Below are positions 17,826 to 26,217 of a stretch of 34,695 bases of DNA, piece by piece (position 1 is the stretch's first letter; every line of letters begins with the position of its first letter). The notes beneath the pieces were generated by a model. The model was not told where the DNA came from and searched no databases. It saw only the letters and a program-made list of their open reading frames with translations. A program made the position numbers and the translations under genes. Source of the stretch: an uncultured Bacilli bacterium (GTDB lineage: Bacteria > Bacillota_I > Bacilli_A > RFN20 > CAG-826); the NCBI GenBank assembly GCA_944358895.1, contig CALVSB010000015.1:1-34695 (forward strand). The letters run 5' to 3'.

Positions 17826-18548
17826 TTATAGGGTCGGGACCGTATAGGCGAGGATGAGGGCACCGATCGAAAGGGCAAGACTCGACAGGAGCCGGACGGC
17901 CACCACCGCCCATTCCCCGTAAGCCAAGGCATTATGGTGGGGCCGGACATAGAGATCGATGCCGCTCGGATCCTCGATCTTCTCGACCTTGAGCCCTTTC
18001 GCAGCCTTGGGATTGAGCTCGGGGAGGATCGAGACGACGGCGAAGAGGAAGAGGATGACCGCCACGACCAGAACGCCGGTCAGGCGGGTCTGGGCCTCGG
18101 TGTAGAAACGGACGAGGAGAAGGCCGCCGATCACCGAGTAAAGGGCCGTCGCCCCCGAATGGAGGAGGGAGAAGGCGAGGTGCCTTTTCTCTTCGACGAG
18201 GTCGCCATGGGAGAAAAGGAGGCCTTCGAAAATCCCGGCGACGAGAACGAAGACGAGGCCGAGGATGGCAAGGACGAGGAGAGAGGTCGTCTCGCCAAGG
18301 AGCGTCATGATGACGAGGAAGGAAAGGACCGAGGCAGCGCTCGGCAGGAAGGAAACGACCCACTGGAGGCTTTCCTTGAGGGCGGGGCTAGCTCCCCGGT
18401 AGGTTCCCCCATAGAGCTCATAGGGGAAATGGGACAGGTAGGAAAAGCGCTCGGCCATCGCCCGGAAGTAGACTTTCGGGAGATAAACTCCGAGAAAAAG
18501 CTCGACGACGAGCGAAAGAAGGGCAAGCGAAAGCGCGGCTTCAGCCAT
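17826..18548 (-). CDS. Unrecognised polytopic membrane protein
   Basis: A 240-residue integral membrane protein I cannot assign. Hydrophobic helices lie at about 4-24, 65-83, 87-110, 125-147, 156-175 and 215-238. A hydrophilic loop (about 25-64) is rich in Tyr, and a charged segment near 178-210 is likely cytosolic (KAAKGLKVEKIED). The ATG at 18548 overlaps the last 8 bp of rpe, giving a tight coupling; the frame is open further upstream but without a start that fits. It occupies the place held in Bacillus by thiN and spoVM, between rpe and rpmB, but resembles neither. It is the last gene of the 23864-17826 operon. Confidence 0.75.
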   Translation of the reverse strand: MAEAALSLALLSLVVELFLGVYLPKVYFRAMAERFSYLSHFPYELYGGTYRGASPALKESLQWVVSFLPSAASVLSFLVIMTLLGETTSLLVLAILGLVFVLVAGIFEGLLFSHGDLVEEKRHLAFSLLHSGATALYSVIGGLLLVRFYTEAQTRLTGVLVVAVILFLFAVVSILPELNPKAAKGLKVEKIEDPSGIDLYVRPHHNALAYGEWAVVAVRLLSSLALSIGALILAYTVPTL

Positions 18549-19221
18549 GGATGAGCCCCCTGAGGCGCGACGCGAAGTCGCTATGTCCGTAGAGATAGGA
18601 ACCGGCCACCAAAATATCAACGCCGGAGGCGATGGCTTTCTTGGCCGTCATATCGTTGATCCCGCCATCGATCGAAAGGAGGATCTTGTGGCCGCCATCG
18701 ACGATCATCTTCTTGATGGCCCGGGCCCGCGGGAGGCTCTCCTCCATGAACTTCTGCCCGCCTTTCCCCGGCTCGACCGACATGAGAAGGATCAAATCGA
18801 CATAAGGCAGATAGGGGGAAAGACGTTCGACCGGGGTCCCTGGGCGAAGGGAAACGCCAATGAAAGGAGAAGGGATTAATTTCCTCAGATCTTTAGGGTC
18901 GATGCCCCGGGCTTCAAGGGCCTCGAGGTGCACGGTGATGGCGTCCGCCCCGAGGGCGGCGAAGTTGGCCCCGACCCCAATGGGGTCATCGACCATCAAA
19001 TGGACGTCAGAGAAAAGAGGGCAAGAGGGCAAAACGGCGTCAACTTCACCGTCAAAAAAGCTCGTGGCCGGCACGAAAGAGCCGTCCATCACGTCGAAAT
19101 GGATGATTTCGGCCCCGGCGGAAGCCGCCTTTTGAATCTCCGCGGCGAGGTGGTCCTGCTCGGCCGCGAGAAGCGACGGCGAGACGGCGGGAAGCTTGAG
19201 CGAGAAGAGATCCTTCATCAT
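18541..19221 (-). CDS. rpe: Ribulose-phosphate 3-epimerase
   Basis: Interconverts ribulose-5-phosphate and xylulose-5-phosphate in the pentose phosphate pathway. It is a TIM-barrel enzyme of 226 residues. Visible motifs are AVSPSLLAA near 11, the metal/catalytic HFDVMDGSFVP near 41, DVHLMVDDP near 72, SVEPGKGGQKF near 140 and the phosphate-binding SIDGGIN near 172. Two adjacent ATG codons (19221 and 19218) are possible; 19221 is taken because it forms an ATGA overlap with the prkC stop. No separate ribosome site is seen, so it depends on coupling. In Bacillus rsgA lies between prkC and rpe; here it is absent. Confidence 0.96.
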   Translation of the reverse strand: MMKDLFSLKLPAVSPSLLAAEQDHLAAEIQKAASAGAEIIHFDVMDGSFVPATSFFDGEVDAVLPSCPLFSDVHLMVDDPIGVGANFAALGADAITVHLEALEARGIDPKDLRKLIPSPFIGVSLRPGTPVERLSPYLPYVDLILLMSVEPGKGGQKFMEESLPRARAIKKMIVDGGHKILLSIDGGINDMTAKKAIASGVDILVAGSYLYGHSDFASRLRGLIHG

Positions 19222-20099
19222 TTGAACCCGAAAATCCGCGACAAAAGCCCTCTCTTCGTCTTGAAATTGTTCCCGTCCTTGAGGGTTTCGAGAATGGCTT
19301 CCTTCATCTGCTCGGCACTCCGGAACCGCTCCTCGGGGCGCTTCCGGCACGCCCGGACGACGATCCGGTCGATGGCTTTGCTCACGTCCGGCATCGTTTT
19401 GGAAGGCTCGGGGAAATGCTTCTTGATCTGCTCGACCGCCACCTCTTCCGGGGTCGGGGCGTCGAAAGGAACGCTCCCGGTGAGGAGCTCGTAGTAGACG
19501 ATGCCCATCGAATAGATGTCCGACTCGACCCGGGCTTTCTCCCCCATCAGGATCTCGGGGGCCGTGTAGTAGACCGTCCCGGCGATGGCGTCGCCGTTCG
19601 AGGAAGAATCGCCGATCGGGGTCGAGATGCCGAAATCGGCGATCTTGATCGACCCGTCGGGCAAATAGAAAAGATTGTCGGGCTTGATATCCCGGTGAAG
19701 GAGGCCGTGCTGGTGGATATAGCTCACGCCCGAGCAGAGCTGGACCATGATCTCGCTCGCCTCGAGGGGGCTGAGGAAATGGCCGGCCACGACGTTCAGC
19801 TTGTCGCGGAGGGTCCGTCCGTCCACGTATTCGTTGACCATGTAGGGGCGGCCGTCGACCGTTCCTTCGCCATAGACCTTCACGATGTTCGGGTCGTTGA
19901 GCGAGGCCGCGGCCACGCATTCCCGGTGGAAGCGCTCGATGTTCTTCTCGCTCCCCATCATGTCTTTCCGCATGATCTTGATGGCCACCGGCCGCTTGTA
20001 GACGATGTCGTATCCTTCGTAGACGTCGGCCATCCCGCCATGGGCGATCCGGCTCACCACCCGGTAGCGGCCGTCGATCTTGTCGCCGAGCTCAATCAT
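19218..20099 (-). CDS. prkC: Soluble PrkC-like Ser/Thr protein kinase
   Basis: A Hanks-type kinase of 293 residues, against about 650 for Bacillus PrkC. All catalytic elements are present: glycine loop IAHGGMADVYEG at 18-29, Lys41 in VAIKI, HRDIKPDN at 135-142, DFG at 155-157, an activation loop with Thr175 in GTVYYTAPE and the APE at 180-182. The sequence ends about 20 residues after the kinase domain with a basic tail. There is no juxtamembrane region, no transmembrane helix and no PASTA repeat. It therefore cannot sense muropeptides the way PrkC does and should be cytosolic. It starts inside the end of stp (8-bp overlap), so kinase and phosphatase are co-translated. Confidence 0.93.
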   Translation of the reverse strand: MIELGDKIDGRYRVVSRIAHGGMADVYEGYDIVYKRPVAIKIMRKDMMGSEKNIERFHRECVAAASLNDPNIVKVYGEGTVDGRPYMVNEYVDGRTLRDKLNVVAGHFLSPLEASEIMVQLCSGVSYIHQHGLLHRDIKPDNLFYLPDGSIKIADFGISTPIGDSSSNGDAIAGTVYYTAPEILMGEKARVESDIYSMGIVYYELLTGSVPFDAPTPEEVAVEQIKKHFPEPSKTMPDVSKAIDRIVVRACRKRPEERFRSAEQMKEAILETLKDGNNFKTKRGLLSRIFGFK

Positions 20100-20850
20100 T
20101 GCCGAGGGCCTCCCAATAGGCTACCGCGATGTTGTCGCTCCCGCCGGTGCCGTTGGCCTCGTAGACGTAGGCAAGGGCCTTCTGGTCGGCCCGCTCGTCG
20201 GTCGAGGCAATGGCGACGATCGAGGAAAGGGGCAACTGGTTGTAGAGTCCGTCGGAGCATAGGAGCAGGCTTTCGCCCTCGTAACGGTAGCTATAGATGT
20301 CGAGGGCGAGAGAAGGATAGATCCCGAGGGCGTTCATAAGGACGTGGCGGTCGGGATGAGTCAAGGCTTCCTCGGGGCGGATCTTGCCGGCCCTGAGAAG
20401 GAAGTTCACATAGGTCTGGTCGACCGTGAGCTGGCGCCCCTCCCGGTCCTTGATGGCATAGGCCCTGGAGTCGCCGACATTGGCGACGAGGAGCCGCTTC
20501 CCCGAAAGGAGGGCGGCGACGAGAGTCGTCCCCATCCCCTTAGCCTCGGGATGGGCGTCCTGGTAGGCATAGATGGCCTTGTTGGCCTTCCGATAGGCCT
20601 TCTTCAGCCATTTCTTGTCGCCATGGGCCAAAACATGGGGCTTCTTGTTCCGGAAAAGGGCGGCGATGACGTCGATGGCCATCTTGGAGGCAACGTCGCC
20701 TTTGTTGGCCCCGCCCATCCCGTCGGCGACGACCAAAAGGACCTCCCCGGCCGCGTTCATGAGGACGAGGGAACGGTCTTCGTCGTCTTTCCTGACTTTG
20801 CCCCGGTCGGTCCGGTAGGCATATGTCCCGTGGATCGAATAGCGGTTCAT
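20092..20850 (-). CDS. stp: PP2C-family Ser/Thr phosphatase Stp/PrpC
   Basis: A metal-dependent phosphatase of 252 residues that reverses the partner kinase. Motifs are RGKVRKDDEDR at 16-26 (the usual Asn before ED is Asp), VADGMGGANKG at 41-51 with metal ligands D43 and G44, GMGTTLVAA near 105, NVGDSRAY near 124, LCSDGL near 197 and the closing SDNIAV near 238. The ATG at 20850 is one nucleotide after the rlmN stop and no strong ribosome site is seen. The order rlmN-stp-prkC is that of Bacillus rlmN-prpC-prkC. Confidence 0.96.
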   Translation of the reverse strand: MNRYSIHGTYAYRTDRGKVRKDDEDRSLVLMNAAGEVLLVVADGMGGANKGDVASKMAIDVIAALFRNKKPHVLAHGDKKWLKKAYRKANKAIYAYQDAHPEAKGMGTTLVAALLSGKRLLVANVGDSRAYAIKDREGRQLTVDQTYVNFLLRAGKIRPEEALTHPDRHVLMNALGIYPSLALDIYSYRYEGESLLLCSDGLYNQLPLSSIVAIASTDERADQKALAYVYEANGTGGSDNIAVAYWEALGND

Positions 20851-20851
20851 G

Positions 20852-21895
20852 TCACTTGGCTTTCTGGTACTTGGCCCGGAGCTGCCCGCAGGCGGCGTCG
20901 ATGTCGGTCCCGAATTCCTTGCGGACCGTGCAGTTGATCCCGCGGTTATTGAGGATCGTCATGAAGCGCCGGGCATTCTTCGAGCGCCTGAAGGGCTTTT
21001 CCTTTACCGGGTTGAGGGGGATGAGGTTGACGTAGCAAAGCATCCCCTTGAGCAGGGAGGCCAGCTCGTAGGCGTTTTCGTCTTTGTCGTTCAGACCGTC
21101 GATCAGGATGTATTCGAAGGTGAGGCGGCGGCCGCTACTTTCGATGTAGTCGCGGCAGGCGTCCATCAGCTCTTCCATCGTATAGCCGCGGGCAATCGGC
21201 ATGAGTTCGCGCCGCGTCTTCTCGTTGCTCGCATGGAGGGAGATGGCCAAATTGATCTGGAGCCCTTCCTTCCCGTAGCGGCGGATCTTGTCGAGGATCC
21301 CGCAGGTCGAGACGGTGATGTGCCTGGCCCCGATGCCCATGGCGTGGTCGTCGTTGATGATTCGGATGAAATCCATCACGTTGTCGTAGTTGTCGAACGG
21401 CTCGCCGGTCCCCATGACCACGACGTGGGAAAGGCGTTCCCCCGCTTCCTTGAGGAAATCGTCGATGAGAAGGCATTCGCTCACCATTTCCCCGGCGGTC
21501 AAGACCCGGGTTCTCTTAAGGAGGCCGGAAGCGCAGAAGGCACAGCCCATCGAGCAGCCGACTTCGCTGCTCACGCAGGCGACGTTCCCGTAGTCGTAGC
21601 GCATGAGGACGGCCTCGACGAGCGAGCCGTCGGCCATCCTCAAAAGGAACTTGACGGTCCCGTCGGAAGCTTCCTGCTTGGTCGCGACTTCCGGAAGGGC
21701 AAAGGAAAAAGCCGCCGCGAGGCGTTCGCGATAGCTTTTCGAGACATCGGTCATCATTTCGGGGTCATAGACCCTTTTCTTGTAGACCCACTCGAAAAGC
21801 TGCCTTGCGCGGTAAGGCTTTTCCCCTTCCTCGACGACGGCTTTTTCAAGCTTGGAGAGGGGGTAGTCGAAGAATAAGCGCTTCCCTCCGTCCAT
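20852..21895 (-). CDS. rlmN: Dual-specificity RNA methyltransferase RlmN
   Basis: A radical-SAM enzyme that methylates C2 of A2503 in 23S rRNA and A37 in some tRNAs. The 347 residues contain the iron-sulfur motif CSMGCAFC (CxxxCxxC) near 113-120, GTGEPFDNYDN near 161 and the SAM-binding SLHASNE near 220. A late Cys needed for catalysis is present in the AACGQLRAK region, with a further Cys in NCTVRKE. GGGAG precedes the ATG at 21895. It follows the rsmB-like gene by 12 bp, as in Bacillus. Confidence 0.97.
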   Translation of the reverse strand: MDGGKRLFFDYPLSKLEKAVVEEGEKPYRARQLFEWVYKKRVYDPEMMTDVSKSYRERLAAAFSFALPEVATKQEASDGTVKFLLRMADGSLVEAVLMRYDYGNVACVSSEVGCSMGCAFCASGLLKRTRVLTAGEMVSECLLIDDFLKEAGERLSHVVVMGTGEPFDNYDNVMDFIRIINDDHAMGIGARHITVSTCGILDKIRRYGKEGLQINLAISLHASNEKTRRELMPIARGYTMEELMDACRDYIESSGRRLTFEYILIDGLNDKDENAYELASLLKGMLCYVNLIPLNPVKEKPFRRSKNARRFMTILNNRGINCTVRKEFGTDIDAACGQLRAKYQKAK

Positions 21896-21907: not shown

Positions 21908-23293
21908 TTATTTGCCTTGGAGAGATGCCGGCATCGCCGGATCGACGTAGGCCGGGGTCGGCGGAACGGCGCTGACCGGGGTCTCTTCGACCTTGGTTTC
22001 CGGGGTTTCCGGATCGACGGCCAGTTCTTGCTTCGTCAGGACTGCGTAGTAGAGGGCGGTATCGAGATCCTCGAACGGGAAGATCTGCCGCTCGCTCTCG
22101 AGATGGAACTCGGGGTGGGCCATGATGAAGTTGTTGACGGTCCTATGCCCTTCGAGCATCGAAATCGTGTAGACCATGTAAACGAGCTTGCCGCCGGTGA
22201 CGACGAACTTGCTGACGGCTTCGAGGGTCGCCTTTTCCTCGGCGAGGACCTTTTCCATCTCCTCGTTCTTGAAGTGGAGGAGGAAGTCCGGGCTTTCGCG
22301 GATCTGATCGAAGCTCGAGGAGAGCGGAGCGCAGATCGCGAGGTCGACCGGCCGGGAGACGGCCGCCGTGAGAAGGGCGTCGCTAGCCTCGCCTTCGAAG
22401 AAGTTGACGGTCTTGAGGTCCTTGCTCTTGATGAGGCGGCTCACCGCGACATGGTGGTTCTTGGACTTGCAGCCGAGGTTGAGGGCCACGTTGCTATAGC
22501 GTTCCACCGCTTCGAGGAGAAGCGAGGAATCTTCGAGGCCGCTGTAGACGAGGGCTTCGGCCGGGGTCTCGAGCGGGAGCTGGTCGAGGACGAACTTGGT
22601 CGCCGGGCGCTCGAGCCAGATGGTCCCGTTCACATAGTCCGGGAGGCGGCGGAGCGGCGACTTGCCGGTGTAATAGGCGATTCCTTCGACGGTCGAAGGC
22701 TTGAAATCGGGGTTGGCTTCATAGAAGCTCGAGGGATCGATCGGGGCGCCGAGGCGAACCGAAATGGTGCCGGGGCGGGCGTTTTTGCGGAGGATTTTGC
22801 CCATCACGCCCTTGCCGTAGTGCGACCAGATCCGCATCGCCCATTCCGGGCAGTTGTAGCGGAGGGAAAGGTATTGGTCGGTCCAGCTTTGGCCGGCATC
22901 TTCCGGCATGAAGTCGTGGACCTCGGAAAGGGCCTTCTGGAAGAGCGGCTCGACGAGGGCGAACTTCTCGTCCCCGAGGCGGGCCTTGACGAGGGCGGCC
23001 ATCTCCTCGTAGCCGACGCGCTTGTAGTAATAGACATCGGCCAAGCCGAGGGCGACGAGCCTCTTCTCGTCTTCGTCGAGTCCCTCGATCTTCTTGAGGA
23101 GCGCGGTGAAAAGAAGATGGTGGCGCAGCTCGCAGCCGACGAGTCCGGCCACGAACGAGCGGTATTTCCTGAGCGGCTCGTTTTCCCGCGGCTGGAATTT
23201 CTTTCTCAGCGCTTCGTTGAACGGAACGTCGTCAACGACGATTTCCTTAAGGATTTGCTCCGCGAGGGAGATTTGAAGTTCGGTCTCTTCCAT
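21908..23293 (-). CDS. RsmB-family protein lacking methyltransferase active-site residues
   Basis: A 461-residue homologue of RsmB (Sun), the 16S rRNA m5C967 methyltransferase, in the exact RsmB locus before rlmN. The N-terminal NusB-like RNA-binding domain (about 5-135) is intact and the linker keeps YNCPEWAMRIWSHYG (146-160). The catalytic domain aligns along its length, but its key motifs are lost. The SAM-binding CAAPGGKT position reads YSGLEDSS (250-257). The motif IV position, normally DAPCSG, reads CAPLSS (321-326). The motif VI position, normally YSTCT, reads YMVYT (372-376). Both catalytic cysteines are gone, so methyl transfer by the known mechanism is not possible; an RNA-binding or assembly role is the likely remainder. 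A Pro/Glu/Thr-rich tail follows. The ATG at 23293 is chosen because GGAGGT lies 7 nt upstream. Confidence 0.85.
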   Translation of the reverse strand: MEETELQISLAEQILKEIVVDDVPFNEALRKKFQPRENEPLRKYRSFVAGLVGCELRHHLLFTALLKKIEGLDEDEKRLVALGLADVYYYKRVGYEEMAALVKARLGDEKFALVEPLFQKALSEVHDFMPEDAGQSWTDQYLSLRYNCPEWAMRIWSHYGKGVMGKILRKNARPGTISVRLGAPIDPSSFYEANPDFKPSTVEGIAYYTGKSPLRRLPDYVNGTIWLERPATKFVLDQLPLETPAEALVYSGLEDSSLLLEAVERYSNVALNLGCKSKNHHVAVSRLIKSKDLKTVNFFEGEASDALLTAAVSRPVDLAICAPLSSSFDQIRESPDFLLHFKNEEMEKVLAEEKATLEAVSKFVVTGGKLVYMVYTISMLEGHRTVNNFIMAHPEFHLESERQIFPFEDLDTALYYAVLTKQELAVDPETPETKVEETPVSAVPPTPAYVDPAMPASLQGK

Positions 23294-23314
23294 GGTTAGT
23301 ACCTCCGAAAACGC

Positions 23315-23334
23315 AAAAGGGCGGTCACTCGCCC
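23315..23334 (-). terminator. Possible attenuator between the hypothetical gene and rsmB-like gene
   Basis: On the - strand GGGCG (23330-23334) pairs with CGCCC (23319-23323) across a 6-nt loop, followed by TTTTGCGTTTT. It overlaps the stop codon of the upstream gene, so translation could affect its folding. The stem is short. Confidence 0.4.
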
Positions 23335-23864
23335 CCCTTGCCCTTGATATAAGCCTCCAGATCGGTGGCGGCTTTTTCCTCGAGGGCGTCCATCTTGCCC
23401 TCGAAGGCGTCGCCGAGATAGATGCCCTCAGCCTCGTCCGGATGTTCTTCCGAGGGCGAAGGGGCATCGAAGGCTTCCGCGGCAGCCTCGTCGGCGGCCA
23501 GTTCGGCTTCCTTGATGTTCTCGGCTTTGAGGAAGCGCGGATACGCGGGATTGTGCTGCCGGTATTCGTGCCCGTGGAAATACTCGAAGCGGAGTTCGAC
23601 GTTGACCGAGAAATCGGTCATCGTCTTCAGTAGGTATTGCGCTACCTTGTCTTCCACCGCCTGGTATTTCTCGTCGGCGTGCACGACGATCAGGCAATTC
23701 CACGAGATCTGCTCGACCCCGTCGTGGAAGAGCGTGCTGTTGGGCGAATAAAAGGAGATTTCGTCCTCGCTGATTTCGAAGAGGGAGGCGAGATTCTTCT
23801 CGTGTTCGCGGCTGTAATGGCCCGCCACGTACTGGTCGAGCCCTAGGATGTCGATGGTGATCAT
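23325..23864 (-). CDS. Conserved-looking hypothetical protein, first gene of the rlmN-stp-prkC operon
   Basis: A 179-residue soluble protein I cannot name. Residues 1-115 look like a compact alpha/beta domain (MITIDILGLDQYV, ISWNCLIVVHADEKY, VEDKVAQYLLKTM, VNVELRFEYFHGHEY); the layout recalls small tautomerase-like or DUF1904-type folds, but that is a guess. Residues 120-179 are acidic, Ala/Glu-rich and probably disordered. GGAAGAG precedes the ATG at 23864. It occupies the site of def and fmt in Bacillus and heads the operon, driven by an extended -10 promoter at 23881-23909. Confidence 0.7.
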   Translation of the reverse strand: MITIDILGLDQYVAGHYSREHEKNLASLFEISEDEISFYSPNSTLFHDGVEQISWNCLIVVHADEKYQAVEDKVAQYLLKTMTDFSVNVELRFEYFHGHEYRQHNPAYPRFLKAENIKEAELAADEAAAEAFDAPSPSEEHPDEAEGIYLGDAFEGKMDALEEKAATDLEAYIKGKGGE

Positions 23865-23880: not shown

Positions 23881-23909
23881 ATTATAGCACGCGAAGGGGG
23901 CAGGCTAAA
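23881..23909 (-). promoter_or_regulatory. Promoter of the hypothetical-rsmB-rlmN-stp-prkC-rpe operon
   Basis: On the - strand a perfect -10 TATAAT (23881-23886) carries the extended TGn element (TGCTATAAT). The -35 at 17 bp, TTTAGC (23904-23909), is weak, as is usual for extended -10 promoters. Confidence 0.6.
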
Positions 23910-24018: not shown

Positions 24019-26217
24019 CTAGTAGTCGAGGGGATCGACGTCGACGTCGATCCGGATTCCGGGGACGGCCCCGTGGCGGGCGATGAGCTCTTTGAGGGGC
24101 CCTTCCACCGCCTCCCGCTTCTTGAACTTGAGGACGACGACCCGCCGGAAATAGCCGTCTTTCCGAACGAAATAGGGAGTCAAGGGCCCGATGACTTTCG
24201 TCTTCTCGAGTTCCAAGGTCCTTAGCTCATTAGCAAAGGAGAGGGCTTCCTCTTGGGCTTTTTCCTCGTTCGCGGCGCCGAATTCGACGGCGATGAGGAG
24301 GACATAGGGCGGGAACTGGGCGATTTTCCTTTCCCGCATCTCCCGGAGGAAAAAGCCGGGATAGTCCTGCTTGGCCCCCATGACGATGGCGTAATGGTTG
24401 GGATTGTAGGTCTGGATGATGGCCTCGCCCGGGAGGGAGCTCCGCCCGGCCCGGCCCACCGCTTGGGCGATGAGCTCGAAGCTCCGCTCGGCCGAGCGGT
24501 AGCCCGGGAGGGCGAGACCGATGTCGGCATCGGTCACCGCGGCCAGGGTCAAAAAGGGGAAGTCGTGCCCCTTGGCGACGATCTGGGTCCCGACGAGGAT
24601 GTCGAATTCCTTTTCCCGGAAGGCGTGGACGAGCTTCTCGAGCTTGCTCGCCGAGCGGGCGGTGTCGCTGTCTAAGCGGGCGACCCGGGCCGTCGGGAAA
24701 AGGGTCGTCACTTCTTCTTCGAGCCGCTCGGTCCCGTAATTGACGCGCCTAAGCTCGTGTGAACCGCATTCCGGGCAGGCGTCCGGATAGAGCTCGACAT
24801 GGCCGCAGTGATGGCATTTGAGAAGGCGTTCCCGGAAATGGTAAACGAGGTTGCTCCCGCATTCCGGGCACTTGAAAAGATGGCCGCACCGGGGGCAATT
24901 GATGCCGCTCCAATATCCCCGGCGGTTGATGAGGAGGAGGCACTGCTCCTTCTTGGAGAGCTTTTCCCTGATCTTGGCGATGAGGTACTTCGAAAGCTTG
25001 TTCGATTCATTCCCCATTGTGCCGCGTTCCCTTAAATCGACGATGGTCGTGAGCGGAAGGGGCCGCTCGTTGACCCGATGGGGCATCGAAGCGTAGCCGT
25101 AGACCCCTTTGAGAGCCCGGGCTCTCGTCTCGAGCGACGGGGTGGCCGAGCCAAGGACGACCTTGGCCCCGGCTTTTCCCCGCATGATGGCGACTTCGCG
25201 GGCATGGTAATGGGGCGCGTTGTCCTGCTTGTAGCTATCGACGTGCTCCTCGTCGAGGATGATGAGGCCGATGTTCTCGAGCGGCGCGAAGACGGCGCTC
25301 CGGGCGCCGACGACGATGTCGGCCTCCCCGCGGGCGATCCGGCGGTATTCGTCGTAGCGTTCCCCCGGGGTGAGCTCGCTATGGAGGATGGCGATCTTGC
25401 TACCGAAGCGGCGGGCGAAATAGTCGACCATCGCCGGGGTGAGGTTGATTTCCGGGACGAGCATGAGGACTTTCTTCCCGCTTTCGAGGCAGTGCTCGCT
25501 GAGCCGAAGGTAGACTTCGGTCTTGCCCGAGCCGGTCACCCCTTCGAGGAGGATGACGGGCTTGTCGGAGGCAATGATCTTCTCGTAGGCCTCATGCTGC
25601 TCATAGGTCATTTCGTGGGGCACTTCCCGCTCGCGCTCGGGTATCTCGAGGCGCCGCCGCTCCTTTTTGAAGAAGCGGACCCGGCCCTTCTTGGCCAAGG
25701 CTTCGAGAATCGACGGGCTCCCGGCTTCCTTTTTCCGGAGAGGCGAGGACGAAAGGAGGAAGCGGAGGGTCTCGATTTGCTTGAGGGTCAATCCCTCTTC
25801 GTTCTTGCTTATCGCTTCGACATAGGTCTCGTAGGCGATCTTCGGGGCTTTGAGCGAGGAGGAACGCGGAGCTAGAGACGGCGGGAGCATGGCTTGGAGG
25901 ACGCTGATCAGGGGGGCCATGTAATAGGAAGCGACCTCCTTGGCGAGATCCATGAGGGAAGAAGTGAGAAGCGGTTCCTCGTCGACGATGTCCCCGTCAT
26001 GGATTTCGTTGACCCTATATCCGAGCTCGGTCGAAAGTTCCTCCGGGGTCCCTTGGTAATCCCTCGAAGAAACGACGAAGCCGATGAGGCTCTTCTTGTT
26101 GAAGGCGCAGCGGACGCGGAAACGGGGCCCGATGGGCTTTTCTCCCCGGTAGAAGTAGGAAAAAGGCCGGTCTAATGACCGGGCCGAGTATTCGACAAGG
26201 ACTTCGAGGAGCTTCAT
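24019..26217 (-). CDS. priA: Primosomal protein N' (replication restart helicase PriA)
   Basis: A 3'-to-5' DNA helicase that reloads the replisome at stalled forks. At 732 residues it has the normal length. The N-terminal 3'-binding domain (1-105) is followed by the superfamily 2 helicase core with Walker A GVTGSGKT (226-233) and Walker B DEEH (322-325). Eight zinc-binding Cys in four CxxC pairs follow (CPRC, CPEC, CHHC, CPEC, about 455-500), then helicase motifs through QAVGRAGR near 610. The ATG at 26217 is 10 nt after the gmk stop with only a weak GAGG. It is the second gene of gmk-priA; coaBC and rpoZ, which lie between them in Bacillus, are absent. Termination is unclear: two short hairpins without a good U-tract lie at 23950-23990. 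Confidence 0.98.
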   Translation of the reverse strand: MKLLEVLVEYSARSLDRPFSYFYRGEKPIGPRFRVRCAFNKKSLIGFVVSSRDYQGTPEELSTELGYRVNEIHDGDIVDEEPLLTSSLMDLAKEVASYYMAPLISVLQAMLPPSLAPRSSSLKAPKIAYETYVEAISKNEEGLTLKQIETLRFLLSSSPLRKKEAGSPSILEALAKKGRVRFFKKERRRLEIPEREREVPHEMTYEQHEAYEKIIASDKPVILLEGVTGSGKTEVYLRLSEHCLESGKKVLMLVPEINLTPAMVDYFARRFGSKIAILHSELTPGERYDEYRRIARGEADIVVGARSAVFAPLENIGLIILDEEHVDSYKQDNAPHYHAREVAIMRGKAGAKVVLGSATPSLETRARALKGVYGYASMPHRVNERPLPLTTIVDLRERGTMGNESNKLSKYLIAKIREKLSKKEQCLLLINRRGYWSGINCPRCGHLFKCPECGSNLVYHFRERLLKCHHCGHVELYPDACPECGSHELRRVNYGTERLEEEVTTLFPTARVARLDSDTARSASKLEKLVHAFREKEFDILVGTQIVAKGHDFPFLTLAAVTDADIGLALPGYRSAERSFELIAQAVGRAGRSSLPGEAIIQTYNPNHYAIVMGAKQDYPGFFLREMRERKIAQFPPYVLLIAVEFGAANEEKAQEEALSFANELRTLELEKTKVIGPLTPYFVRKDGYFRRVVVLKFKKREAVEGPLKELIARHGAVPGIRIDVDVDPLDY

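Follow-up and report, generated by a model that had tools for sequence, protein, structure and literature searches.

RNA m5C methyltransferases use the cysteine of motif VI as the nucleophile, and the cysteine of motif IV aids release of the product. Pseudoenzymes as such are already known. It is an old question what selection preserves in bacterial rRNA methyltransferases, the methyl mark or the handling of RNA during ribosome assembly, and the mild growth phenotypes of the mutants make this hard to settle by knock-outs. RsmB of Escherichia coli provides precedents for a role in assembly. When RsmB and RsmD are added together, binding of an h30 probe is reduced in a misfolded class, independently of SAM, a change in h30/h31 folding of nascent 16S rRNA (PMC13004024). 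Deletion of rsmB causes the 17S precursor to accumulate, and the authors proposed for RsmB a role in accelerating assembly or in guarding against misassembly (PMC7056703). Loss of RsmB is already known in Mollicutes (PMC4014445). No report of an RsmB that was inactivated anciently across a whole clade yet conserved was found in the literature searched.

Such a protein appears to be encoded in the window (the whole stretch of 34,695 nucleotides that was analysed, from an uncultured member of the Bacilli). The gene is called pseudo-rsmB here, and it and its neighbours are laid out as follows:

24019..26217, minus strand: priA, conserved upstream neighbour.
23325..23864, minus strand: up179, DUF1904-like gene of 179 aa directly upstream of pseudo-rsmB and after priA, candidate partner.
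23301..23306, minus strand: GGAGGT ribosome-binding site of pseudo-rsmB, 7 nt 5′ of the ATG.
21908..23293, minus strand: pseudo-rsmB, 461 aa, assigned as a catalytically dead RsmB orthologue from profile match, residue columns and gene order.
20852..21895, minus strand: rlmN, directly downstream, neighbour of active and dead rsmB alike.
20092..20850, minus strand: prpC (PP2C phosphatase), same operon as pseudo-rsmB.
19218..20099, minus strand: Ser/Thr kinase (PknB-like), same operon as pseudo-rsmB.

The gene for rpe (18541-19217) comes directly after the kinase gene, and in one relative (G139, locus L247) a gene that reads as RsgA-like lies between the two. A TATAAT sequence at 23881-23886 (minus strand) is located 16 nt ahead of the up179 start codon; it has no consensus -35 box nearby and a scan of the operon found no consensus promoter site, but it is possible that TATAAT marks an operon promoter, whose leader would then be very short.

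The first-pass annotation described an intact frame with a GGAGGT site, an alignment with RsmB from the NusB-like domain to the C-terminus and a retained place in the operon, all of which hold. The frame occupies exactly 21908-23293 on the minus strand, with the site at 23301-23306. On its own the protein scores poorly as a family member: 18.3 bits against PF01189 in a single-sequence Pfam search (cut-off 27), and 51 bits (E 7.9e-14) against the NCBIfam RsmB model PRK14902, whose cut-off of 319 is exceeded by an active orthologue from the same order (429 bits). PF01029 (NusB-like) gives no score any more for the proteins of families f1 and f3. When a profile of the pseudo-RsmB proteins of the genus was aligned by hhalign with a profile of active RsmB from the same order, however, the match extended over 406 columns, including the N-terminal domain (probability 99.9, E 1.3e-34). 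The gene order priA-(up179)-rsmB-rlmN-prpC is common to the dead loci and to most active loci of other families. The strength of the profile match together with the conserved gene order excludes a chance resemblance to RsmB and indicates that the gene is rsmB itself, not a paralogue that has moved in. Structure predictions from two shallow alignments reached pLDDT values of 42 and 38, too low for use.

The residues expected of an active enzyme were tabulated, in the numbering of the window protein, from an alignment of 83 homologues belonging to families f1, f3 and f5 (the clade) with 44 homologues from families elsewhere in the order and class (the active set). The relevant parts of the protein are:

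22904..23293, minus strand: N-terminal domain (residues 1-130), which aligns to the NusB-like domain in active RsmB; acidic.
22589..22903, minus strand: residues 131-235, the PxW region ahead of the methyltransferase core; basic, pI 9.3.
22025..22588, minus strand: degenerate methyltransferase (Rossmann) domain, residues 236-423.
22523..22546, minus strand: YSGLEDSS, residues 250-257, at the position of SAM motif I, CAAPGGK(T).
22319..22321, minus strand: Ser325, at the position of the motif IV cysteine.
22169..22171, minus strand: Tyr375, at the position of the motif VI catalytic cysteine.

Two of the three substitutions first proposed for the active site, YSGLEDSS at SAM motif I (where active orthologues have MCAAPGSK) and Tyr375 at the motif VI cysteine, were borne out by this alignment. 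The third, Leu324 in place of the motif IV cysteine, was displaced by one residue: when the alignment is run without gaps to the conserved RxxPD, Ser325 falls at the cysteine and Leu324 aligns with the proline just before it. At locus L039 in f3 the corresponding stretch is LLAPSSELGLIRRSPDI against LLDAPCSGLGVIRRKPDI. The motif VI cysteine is present in 44/44 proteins of the active set and in 0/83 of the clade, where the column holds Tyr, Pro, Asn, Phe and others, never Cys. The motif IV cysteine, likewise found throughout the active set (44/44), occurs in only two of the 83 clade proteins (L121 and L127, both of f1), and most of the others have Ser. Asp249 and Lys257 of motif I, Asp275 of motif II and Asp322 of motif IV are each found in at least 95% of the active set and in 0/83 of the clade, and the CAAPG signature of motif I is not retained. 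Most of the residues that are kept belong to the fold (Pro149, Trp151, Leu357, Gly368, Tyr372, Thr376, Glu381). Given the known roles of both cysteines and the loss of their columns, catalysis by the known mechanism is excluded by the sequences. An RsmB from a different order of the same class (L185 in genome G223) has both cysteines and an odd motif I, CCGLGTKS, which is possibly an early or a separate change of the SAM site.

The first-pass annotation recognized a pseudoenzyme in one genome; the pseudoenzyme stands, but its scope does not, as the loss is older and extends over three families and tens of genera. Among genomes of the same genus, 35/36 have the gene, without internal stops. The degenerate form was found in every sampled genus of f1, in four genera of f3 and in five genera of f5 that carry the gene, the copies of one f5 genus (g19) being extremely diverged. 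RsmB is intact in families f2, f6, f7 and f8 of the same order and in all class-level homologues examined, and is absent altogether from family f4. An independent RpoB tree unites all 19 genomes that have dead RsmB (87/91), with one change of state, and the RsmB tree also needs only one. The simplest history is a single inactivation in the common ancestor of f1, f3 and f5 followed by long vertical retention. Retention is not universal: in three genomes (G119, G139, G156; loci L245, L247, L250) pseudo-rsmB is gone from between up179 and rlmN while the locus is otherwise intact, and the deletion implies that the gene is dispensable there. All in all, the protein is almost certainly a maintained, catalytically dead orthologue of RsmB.

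The neighbouring gene up179, which the first-pass annotation did not point out, has much the same distribution as the dead RsmB. One screen with the up179 profile found it in 35/37 genomes of f1, 5/5 of f3 and 5/5 of f5, and gave a single weak match (E 7.7e-5) in f2, f4, f6, f7 and f8; a class-wide sample found it in 14/14 genomes of f1 and f3 and 0/106 others; a third screen found it in 74/76 genomes of the clade. Nine of 12 members of the up179 family match PF08921 (DUF1904), the best with E 3.9e-5, and the window protein itself falls under the cut-off (E 0.078). A search of the PDB with the up179 profile returned no match. The gene is directly upstream of pseudo-rsmB in f1, f3 and part of f5, and is unlinked in f5 genus g19. 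At locus L056, which encodes a protein 94% identical to that of the window, up179 and pseudo-rsmB are fused in frame in an ORF of 635 aa (L056:80-1984), a deletion of 49 nt relative to L057 having taken out the up179 stop codon together with the spacer and ribosome-binding site. The fusion may be taken as evidence that the two are linked physically or functionally, subject to the caution that a single metagenome contig calls for. Strict dependence of up179 on pseudo-RsmB was ruled out, as up179 survives in G119, G139 and G156, where pseudo-rsmB is gone. Because up179 and the inactivation each arose once, their association amounts to one phylogenetic data point, helped by the adjacency and the one fusion.

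The pseudo-RsmB of f1 and f3 also differs from active RsmB in charge. The N-terminal domain of active RsmB is basic (+4.3 per 100 aa, pI 9.1) and its block corresponding to residues 131-235 is mildly acidic (mean pI 6.1), whereas in the pseudo-RsmB of f1 and f3 the N-terminal domain is acidic and the 131-235 block strongly basic (+4.4 to +7.1, pI 9.2-9.8); the methyltransferase domain is acidic as well. The DUF1904-like proteins are acidic throughout. The reversal is absent in f5. Such reversed charges would be compatible with a change of interface or RNA contact, and the acidic N-terminal domain of f1 and f3 means that binding may now lie elsewhere or be gone.

The reading favored here, tentatively, is that pseudo-RsmB may be a methylation-independent 30S assembly factor that binds h31, perhaps with the DUF1904-like protein as partner; the role suggested in the first-pass annotation, a 16S rRNA-binding assembly factor or regulator, is plausible, E. 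coli RsmB being a published precedent. RsmB was inactivated once, in the ancestor of f1, f3 and f5, and would have been kept afterwards for a non-catalytic job. Pseudo-RsmB would still bind nascent 30S subunits at the h31 region, without SAM, and might act as a chaperone that prevents misfolding of h30/h31 in early assembly of the 3′ domain. The adjacent acidic DUF1904-like protein, which originated in the same clade, would probably assist, presumably by physical association.

A possible but more doubtful alternative is that the dead RsmB has been repurposed outside 16S assembly, as a scaffold or RNA-binding regulator acting on the DUF1904-like protein or on another RNA through the basic 131-235 block. 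This would suit the reversed charge pattern of the domains in f1 and f3, the clade-specific adjacent gene with its one in-frame fusion, and a former active site that is no longer conserved for catalysis; however, no alternative RNA or partner is known, the operon neighbours are those of active rsmB loci with the exception of up179, and up179 outlives the loss of pseudo-RsmB. It is also conceivable, though rather unlikely, that the two proteins form a methylation-independent 30S module, in which catalysis was given up when the DUF1904-like partner was gained and the pair became the h31 chaperone. If true, this module would be nature's own separation-of-function experiment and would reveal what selection requires of an rRNA-modifying enzyme.

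The RNA target is still there in most genomes. The position taken here to be E. coli 967, placed by its GCAACGCG context in the h31 loop, is C in 28/29 16S genes of the clade, and target loss was thereby ruled out as a general explanation. The exception is genome G078 (16S gene L258), where the h31 loop reads GATAC instead of the GCTAC of its relatives, so that C967 is A; this genome still keeps pseudo-RsmB (L119). Methylation of C967 therefore does not account for the retention of the protein. At the next position, A968 is U in most genomes with pseudo-RsmB (f1, f3, f5), though three f1 genomes retain A, which is also the base in the f2 and f4 genomes seen; the change to U is frequent within the clade without being strict.

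As the first-pass annotation proposed, the genome was searched for a second, intact rsmB; none was found in the source genome (1.46 Mb, 94.5% complete) or in genomes of the same genus. The sole other PF01189 protein of the genome (C1:139666-140253) has intact CAAPGGKS, APCSGS and STCS motifs, lacks the RsmB N-terminal domain and is matched by RsmF models over almost its full length, which makes it an RsmF-type enzyme. Nearly all relatives share this arrangement of an RsmF-type paralogue and pseudo-RsmB. The intact paralogue and the near-constant retention of C967 would allow the RsmF-type enzyme to make m5C967, with pseudo-RsmB as its non-catalytic subunit or as a recruiter to the pre-30S particle, but this is improbable: the paralogue accompanies active RsmB just as regularly in f2, f6, f7 and f8, C967 is under functional constraint regardless, and the two genes are unlinked. 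A role for pseudo-RsmB as a substitute for NusB was ruled out by the presence of stand-alone NusB in 60/61 genomes.

The gene had been described as maintained rather than decayed, and its clade-wide conservation, purifying selection and place in the operon agree with this. A dN/dS comparison, which had been put forward as a check, revealed no relaxed selection: pairs of close relatives gave 0.03-0.28 for pseudo-rsmB, comparable with its neighbours in the same genomes (0.01-0.21 for rlmN, 0.07-0.26 for prpC), and pairs of active RsmB gave 0.18-0.25. Slow decay of a useless remnant retained merely through its operon position, to which the deletions in a few lineages and the strong divergence of the g19 copies might point, is thus very improbable, as dN/dS is far below 1 for all close pairs, frames have stayed open in tens of genera despite long divergence, and the clean deletions indicate that the operon tolerates removal of the gene. 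Least credible of all, to the point of being scarcely worth entertaining, is a methyltransferase that works through other residues, since Ser325 in place of the motif IV cysteine in most proteins and the cysteine of L121 and L127 have to be set against the absence of the motif VI cysteine from all 83 sequences, the loss of Asp249, Asp275, Asp322 and Lys257 throughout, and the disappearance of the CAAPG signature.

With respect to what rRNA methyltransferases are kept for, evolution has made the separation itself: RsmB catalysis was lost once and the protein was retained across three families, which suggests that, in ribosome assembly, holding RNA can count for more than its methylation. If the assembly role of pseudo-RsmB is confirmed, it will be direct evidence of selection on a non-catalytic function alone. 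There is also a practical consequence, in that annotation by homology may label pseudo-RsmB as the m5C967 methyltransferase and lead to false predictions of the rRNA mark.

Among the closest described systems, active RsmB (Fmu/Sun, the 16S rRNA m5C967 methyltransferase; PRK14902/TIGR00563; E. coli structures 1SQF and 1SQG) aligns with pseudo-RsmB at profile level over the full length (N-terminal domain, PxW region, Rossmann core), and the operon neighbours priA, rlmN and prpC are the same. Unlike it, pseudo-RsmB lacks a SAM motif and a catalytic cysteine, is missing conserved Asp residues, falls far under the family cut-offs, has two domains of reversed charge and is preceded by the DUF1904-like gene. 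Mitochondrial NSUN4-MTERF4 pairs a protein of the RsmB superfamily with a partner, and its assembly role is separable from methylation (PMC3916286), but NSUN4 is active and acts on the mitoribosome, and MTERF4 is unrelated to DUF1904. For NOP2/NSUN1, rRNA processing can be rescued by a mutant that lacks catalytic activity (PMC9561284), although the natural protein is active and belongs to a eukaryotic snoRNP context. A further likeness is to E. coli RsmB with RsmD, where the same protein has a SAM-independent effect at the same proposed RNA site (PMC13004024); E. coli RsmB is also an active enzyme and was tested jointly with RsmD, whereas pseudo-RsmB could retain only the non-catalytic part of what it does.
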